From contig CANHHA010000001.1 of NCBI GenBank assembly GCA_947460825.1, positions 149,572-213,571 on the forward strand: DNA of 64,000 nucleotides. Direction: 5' to 3'. Positions 56,378 to 57,566 of this stretch are shown piece by piece. This DNA is from Flavobacteriales bacterium (lineage in GTDB: Bacteria > Bacteroidota > Bacteroidia > Flavobacteriales_D > Crocinitomicaceae). The first letter of the stretch is position 1. Every line of letters starts with the position of its first letter. The position numbers and the translations under genes are program-made. The notes under the pieces are model-generated. The model saw only the letters and a program-made list of their open reading frames with translations. It was not told the origin of the DNA and did no database searches.

Positions 56378-56395
56378 CAAAAGTAAAAAAATAAT

Positions 56396-57566
56396 CGCAG
56401 ACTTCGATACGTAAGCCACGGCTTACTACTCAGCCTGCTTAATTACACCGTGGACTGAGTGGTCCGCCCTGGCGGAATGTATCGAAGGCCACATCACCAT
56501 AACCGCAGGCTTCGATACACTGCGTTACTCAGCCTGCTGAAGACCCGTGGACTGAGTGGTCCGCTGTGGCGGATTGTATCGAAGGCCACATCAAAATAAT
56601 CGCAGACTTCGATACGTAAGCCACGGCTTACTACTCAGCCTGCTTTTACCTCCCGTGGACTGAGTGGTCCGCCCTGGCGGAGTGTATCGAAGGCCACATC
56701 ATCATAATCGCAGGCTTCGATACATATGCCACGGCATACTACTCAGCCTGCTTGTATGTGCTAGGCAATAATTTAAGAACCTTTCGTTGTTCTCTATCCA
56801 AAAGTATTTATGGCGGGATTCATGTATATTCTCAAATGTGCAAACGGAACGTTTTACGTTGGGAGTACAAAGAATTTAATAAGAAGAATTCAAGAACATG
56901 AAACTGGAAATGGAGCTAATCACACGAAGCGTTATGGTCCAGTTGAGCTAGTTTACTTTGAAATATACCAACGGATTGATTTTGCTTATTACCGGGAAAA
57001 ACAAATACAGGGTTGGACTAGAAAAAAGAAACAAGCCCTAATTGATGGAGAATATCCAAACTTAAAATATGCTGCTAAGAAAATCTTTAGAGCCAACTCA
57101 ATAAATCTCCCTGTGGACTGAGTGGTCCGCCCTGGCGGAGTGTATCAAAGGCCACATAACCATATCGCAGGCTTCGATACGTATGCCACGGCATAATACT
57201 CAGCCTGCTTTTACCTCCCGTGGACTGAGTGGTCCGCCCTGGCGGAATGTATCGAAGGCCACATAACCATATCGCAGGCTTCGATACGTATGCCACGGCA
57301 TAATACTCAGCCTGCTTTTACCTCCCGTGGACTGAGTGACCCGAAGGGTTATATCGAAGGCCACATCATCACATCGCAGGCTTCGATATGCTTCGCACTC
57401 AGCCTGCTTTTACCTCCCCGTGGACTGAGTGACCCGAAGGGTTGTATCGAAGGCCACAACATCACATCGCAGGCTTCGATACGTAAGCCACGGCTTACTA
57501 CTCAGCCTGCTTTTACCTCCCGTGGACTGAGTGGTTCGCTGTGGCGGAGTGTAACGAAGGCCACAT
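56396..57566. repeat. array of eight ~90-100 bp structured repeats; unit 4 split by a GIY-YIG gene
   Basis: Units at 56396, 56504, 56601, 56709 (left half; right half 57113-57157), 57166, 57273, 57375, 57468. Consensus left half GCAGGCTTCGATAC-hairpin-ACTCAGCCTGC, right half GTGGACTGAGTG-hairpin-GTATCGAAGGCCAC. Confidence 0.95.
56810..57121 (+). CDS. GIY-YIG nuclease-family protein embedded in the repeat array
   Basis: MYILKCANGTFYVGSTKNLIRRIQEHETGNGANHTKRYGPVELVYFE; last codons GTG GAC TGA lie in the right half of a repeat unit. Confidence 0.93.
   Translation: MAGFMYILKCANGTFYVGSTKNLIRRIQEHETGNGANHTKRYGPVELVYFEIYQRIDFAYYREKQIQGWTRKKKQALIDGEYPNLKYAAKKIFRANSINLPVD

Follow-up and report, generated by a model that had tools for sequence, protein, structure and literature searches.

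The window, i.e. the whole 64,000-nucleotide stretch of DNA that was analysed, contains an array of short bulged hairpins that encloses a gene for a small GIY-YIG nuclease. We consider it likely that hairpins and nuclease form a two-part system resembling REP/RAYT, with the GIY-YIG protein as its dedicated nuclease, although cleavage, binding and transposition were not shown. The clade to which this protein belongs probably supplies the partner enzyme hitherto missing for several very common bacterial repeat families. On balance, and with considerably less assurance, we also incline to the view that these elements represent a new class of bacterial mobile element, in which two widespread superfamilies of hairpin repeats, TTCGA/CTCAG and CGTC, owe their dispersal to dedicated GIY-YIG nucleases that make a hydrolytic nick and leave the copying to the host, in place of the covalent Y1/HUH chemistry of RAYTs. 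To our knowledge, the GIY-YIG fold has not been known to drive transposition of hairpin repeats. The association offers a concrete and testable enzyme for two sets of repeats, the CGTC REPs and a further widespread family of hairpins. If it is confirmed, a large class of small "GIY-YIG nuclease family" proteins would gain a function, and the dispersal of repeats without a transposase would turn into an experimental question. The original prediction, that an autonomous version carrying a GIY-YIG gene and a non-autonomous repeat share the same ends in a REP/RAYT-like manner, is supported by the evidence below, although movement itself was not shown.

Hairpin array and embedded gene at 56397-57564

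Positions 56397-57564 of the window hold eight A (left) and eight B (right) bulged hairpins on the plus strand, with A and B strictly alternating. A hairpin 1 (GCAGAC-TTCGATAC-GTAAGC..GCTTAC-TACTCAG-CCTGC, 56397-56438) is followed by B hairpin 1 (GTGGACTGAGTG..hairpin..GTATCGAAGGCCAC, 56450-56492), and units 2 and 3 consist of A hairpins at 56505-56537 and 56602-56643 with B hairpins at 56547-56589 and 56655-56697, respectively. The fourth unit bears the gene, with A hairpin 4 (56710-56751) as its left end and B hairpin 4 (57113-57155) as its right end. Then come A and B hairpins 5 (57167-57208 and 57220-57262), 6 (57274-57315 and 57327-57364, the latter with the short apex ACCCGAAGGGTT), 7 (57376-57407, also with a short apex, and 57420-57457) and 8 (57469-57510 and 57522-57564). 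In seven units, 9-12 nt (TTTTACCTCCC, TTAATTACACC or TGAAGACCC) separate A from B, and the B-A spacers measure 11-12 nt; in the fourth unit, the A-B spacer extends to 361 bp and holds the GIY-YIG gene (56810-57121, plus strand). The hairpin listing bore out the original prediction of eight tandem units with left and right halves and the gene in unit 4, coordinates included. The gene had further been placed in a spacer of about 360 bp between the two halves, and this was right in size, except that the ORF runs 9 nt into the B half (GTGGACTGA), which contains its stop codon (TGA, 57119-57121). All eight matches of the exact B pattern in the whole 2.66-Mb draft genome fall in this array, one in each B hairpin, and the reversed control gave none, indicating that the array is not due to chance. 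A CRISPR-like array was ruled out, since the units are palindromic and the spacers near-constant at 9-12 nt.

The ORF encodes 103 aa, and PF01541 GIY-YIG was the sole Pfam match of the protein (E=3.8e-18). A profile search placed it in the same single-domain family as the UPF0213 proteins PDB 1zg2 and 1ywl (E=1.4e-20), so that the family assignment is based on Pfam and PDB sequence matches. The solved proteins 1zg2 and 1ywl are listed as hypothetical, and we know of no repeat association or function for them. Residues Y6, Y16, G18, R26, H30 and E63 were invariant in 27 aligned sequences of the clade; the invariance of these active-site residues fits a working enzyme. The window gene is the only clade member in its genome. 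A phage origin was rejected, because the nuclease had no PHROG match and its phage tblastn matches were weak and partial (<60% identity, <80% of query covered). GIY-YIG genes of other families were also seen, one with an in-frame stop in the window genome (L224, G000:C11:1633-1833), and others in G142 and G083 as nearly identical tandem copies spaced by about 300 bp (L192, L194).

A congener, G132, has its own array of nine A and ten B hairpins, where the gene for an identical protein also lies in a 361-bp A-B spacer. The apical hairpin sequences and the unit order differ between the two arrays, which indicates that array units turned over and the gene-bearing unit stayed. As a separate observation, G132 carries a gene for a 2040-aa repeat-rich secreted protein between a TetR gene and the array (L051 6929-13243), which is absent from the window genome (compare window 56385-56396), and the array edge is therefore one end of a 6.3-kb indel.

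The repeat is a short bulged hairpin. Its outer stem is followed by a TC bulge that does not vary (CT-TC-GA...TC-AG) and by an apical stem that varies freely, and folding placed the invariant 2-nt bulge between CT/AG and GA/TC pairs. Repeats tend toward inverted pairs about 10 nt apart, and TTCGAGNNCCTCAG, TTCGACTNCGCTCAG and TTCGACARGCTCAG are the simplest subtypes. In 22 aligned 42-nt copies from Bacteroidota, Kapabacteria and Chlorobiota, which are related to one another and were selected for a single length, 89.9% of cells were paired versus 72.9% when shuffled, double-change cells numbered 48 versus 20, and the covariation score was 0.376 versus 0.104 (0 of 500 shuffles as high); the covariation was lost when partners were slid by 1-3 columns. 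The outer arms formed at least five of six pairs in 120 of 315 distinct motif copies near clade genes, versus 18 with the arms shuffled. These results showed that both stems of the repeat covary.

Pattern matches and fetched stretches showed the core TTCGATAC-apical hairpin-ACTCAG dispersed elsewhere in the window genome with other outer stems (e.g. GCGCACCC/GGGTGCG and AGCGGCCC/GGACCGCT), frequently in inverted pairs. The outer stem and apex of the array subtype are unlike most dispersed copies of the same genome, which counts against the two-part system. Dispersed hairpins of the same core also flank a RhuM-Fic protein gene in this genome (L045 1152-2171, G000:C15) and, by eye, a Fic-like gene (L046, G000:C15:47100-50300), as if hairpin pairs were able to enclose other small cargo genes.

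The position of the gene could also be explained if the repeats existed for unrelated reasons and a selfish GIY-YIG homing gene had inserted into its own recognition site, the A-B spacer, cutting empty A-B pairs so that recombination copies the gene in. GIY-YIG is a classic homing nuclease fold, insertion exactly within the A-B spacer would destroy the site, and NCBIfam gave a weak match of the nuclease to group I intron endonucleases, under cut-off; however, the gene occupies just one of eight A-B spacers in the window and one of nine in G132 despite the adjoining empty pairs, and both the dispersed cognate single hairpins without the gene and the conserved hairpin structure are left unexplained. 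Free-standing and intron GIY-YIG homing endonucleases resemble the window system in nuclease superfamily and in being selfish genes inside a site, whereas the window gene has no intron and no added DNA-binding domain and is flanked by hairpins that are also dispersed gene-free. The defining feature of homing endonucleases, an intron, intein or fixed conserved target site, was not met by the clade genes. We therefore regard homing as an unlikely explanation.

Presence and absence at orthologous sites

Empty sites in related genomes, which the original prediction had proposed to look for, were found both between sufB and sufC in Azospirillum and upstream of pyrG in the window's genus. Azospirillum lipoferum 4B has a REP dimer, a GIY-YIG gene and a second REP dimer between sufB and sufC, and the same interval is without the insert in A. 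ramasamyi, A. oryzae and Azospirillum sp. B510, with flanks 95-97% identical. Upstream of pyrG, gene and hairpins were found in three genomes and were missing from three relatives, and two of the carriers are distinguished, to the left, by a single spacer-plus-B-hairpin unit. No target-site duplication was cleanly readable at the pyrG or suf empty sites, where the intergenic sequence is too diverged. These results showed that gene and hairpins are present or absent at orthologous sites.

Such sites bear on a second explanation, that a resident structure-specific nuclease trims or resolves cruciforms or hairpins and is selected near them, without mobilisation. SLX1 and ANKLE1 are structure-specific GIY-YIG enzymes in eukaryotes, branch-specific nucleases occur among GIY-YIG enzymes, and, judging from the sequence, long-range pairing of A TTCGATAC with B GTATCGAA and of A ACTCAG with B CTGAGT could also turn a unit into a four-way junction. 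This explanation nevertheless seems to us very unlikely, since the gene is patchy, being present or absent together with its hairpins, and its position is not conserved, as clade genes occupy varied intergenic sites between hairpins; a mobile unit fits better than a housekeeping gene.

Clade-specific association of nuclease genes with hairpins

Clade genes proved widespread in a search across the bacterial family. Within 400 bp of 62 of these genes, the motif occurred at 1.64/kb, and the remainder of these regions had 0.054/kb (30-fold local enrichment), and a reversed-pattern control was about flat around the same genes (0.03 near versus 0.017 beyond). The flanking intergenic gaps contained the motif at 32 of 59 clade genes, on both sides in 15, versus 23 of 635 control ORFs with none on both sides. 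No upstream/downstream orientation bias of motifs around clade genes was found in the intergenic gaps. A separate scan of public genomes found the strict motif at 61 of 80 clade loci, which came from Bacteroidota, Chlorobiota, Kapabacteria, Ignavibacteria, Calditrichia, Fibrobacter, Kuenenia, Leptospiraceae and Melainabacteria (phyla including Fibrobacterota and Planctomycetota). Many of the remaining loci had variant hairpins by eye, which were left out of this count, e.g. TTCGGCTACGCTCAG or, in one nuclease subclade (L102-L110), the related but distinct core TCTCGATAC..ACTCGAACTGAC, likewise recognised only by eye. Inverted repeats between the upstream and downstream sides of the genes reached 34 nt at the 80 loci, versus 13 nt in shifted controls. 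The motif was found at only one of 24 genes of other GIY-YIG families in the same genomes. All these results showed that the association is clade-specific and extends across many phyla, so the expectation that homologues would be repeatedly nested between hairpins holds for the clade and not for other GIY-YIG families.

The repeats also matched the nuclease in type. Repeat subtype clusters on the protein tree, itself poorly resolved, with 32 changes versus a shuffled mean of 44.1 (0 of 200 as low). Where the nuclease was flanked by TTCGAGNNCCTCAG, further copies away from the gene (1-25) were present in 14 of 14 genomes, versus dispersed TTCGAGNNCCTCAG copies in three of 14 genomes whose nuclease was flanked by another subtype (p=1.3e-5), and the same kind of test for the TTCGACTNCGCTCAG subtype gave p=0.017; species relatedness was uncorrected in these tests. 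The flanking subtype thus predicts the dispersed subtype (p=1e-5). Repeats per Mb were modestly more numerous in genomes with the gene than in those without it (median 19.7 versus 12.3, p=0.001, phylogeny uncorrected), and the modest size of this difference counts against the two-part system. Repeat copy number had been expected to track the gene, and this was seen for subtype, more weakly for gene presence alone. Three congeners (G075, G148 and G175) have the window's repeat subtype in 5-15 copies with no detectable clade gene. Repeats equally abundant in genomes lacking the gene had been named as a refutation, which partly applies here; the observation fits repeats that can outlive their nuclease.

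The weakest alternative, that the hairpins are transcription terminators or RNA stabilisers which pile up with a small gene in permissive intergenic regions, can draw on a report in which REP-like hairpins often lie between genes and are plausibly transcribed (PMC3733652), but it is already strongly disfavoured and to us scarcely credible, because intergenic motif density was 3.66/kb beside clade genes versus 0.27/kb at control ORFs, other small GIY-YIG genes are without the motif, and repeat type matches nuclease clade.

Proposed mechanism and relation to known repeats

For the two-part system with a GIY-YIG nuclease, which we prefer, the autonomous form would be an A-B pair with the nuclease gene in its spacer, and gene-less pairs and dispersed single hairpins would be its non-autonomous copies. 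The enzyme is inferred to recognise the hairpin once single-stranded or supercoiled DNA has extruded it, and it may nick at the conserved bulge or close to it. GIY-YIG enzymes act by hydrolysis of DNA and, unlike Y1/HUH enzymes, which rejoin DNA through a covalent intermediate, are not known to us to form one; for this reason, new copies would probably arise from a nick that primes replication or recombination by the host, and such host copying may also drive array growth and turnover. The present evidence fits an enzyme that moves the repeats as well as one that merely processes them.

The window system has in common with GTAG REP/RAYT (TnpA-REP), REPINs and REPtrons short imperfect hairpins in inverted pairs and clusters, dispersed intergenic copies and one cognate gene flanked by repeats. 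Its protein has what membership of the GIY-YIG superfamily requires, a GIY-YIG domain with conserved catalytic residues. The REP/RAYT enzyme, in contrast, is a Y1/HUH tyrosine transposase of the IS200/IS605 type, whereas that of the window is a GIY-YIG nuclease with PF01541 only; REP/RAYT repeats are GTAG-tagged, whereas the window-type core TTCGA..CTCAG conserves the internal bulge CT-TC-GA/TC-AG instead, and no GTAG tag was found in aligned copies from Bacteroidota, Chlorobiota and Kapabacteria. The window system therefore works like REP/RAYT and is not a member of it, having neither a Y1/HUH transposase nor a GTAG tag. No report linking GIY-YIG to REPs was found in the open-access literature, preprints and most subscription papers being outside our coverage.

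CGTC REPs occur in five phyla, apparently without a dedicated transposase, and their spread was left open (Di Nocera et al. 2013, PMC3733652). They are likewise hairpins in inverted dimers, but have a CGTC tag, an AT start (8-9 bp stem) and a CCA tail, and the window repeats, without all three, were rejected as CGTC REPs on sequence. A sister GIY-YIG clade, however, is flanked by exactly these repeats. Related genes of Proteobacteria were found by tblastn into plasmid-collection records, among which those of Methylobacterium and Sphingomonas have hairpins of the TTCGA..CTCAG type on their flanks. Canonical CGTC REPs, e.g. CGTCATTCCCGCGCAGGCGGGAATCCA, flank the sister-clade genes with a REKxLKKWxRxWK-like signature, which come from Aeromonas, Neisseria, Rhizobium, Sinorhizobium, Azospirillum, Neorhizobium, Shinella and Photobacterium. 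In a convenience sample of 15 sister-clade loci, at least one CGTC REP was present at 11, and the other four had hairpin variants by eye. There were 31 copies within 500 bp of the sister-clade genes (18.6 kb in total) versus 18 in 114 kb farther out, and the pattern gave 0 matches in reversed sequence. The window protein and the Azospirillum protein share 44% identity over 82 residues. On plasmid p1 of Planktothrix agardhii (L277), a GIY-YIG gene with TGTCATTCTGAG-type hairpins adjoins the DISARM gene drmA.
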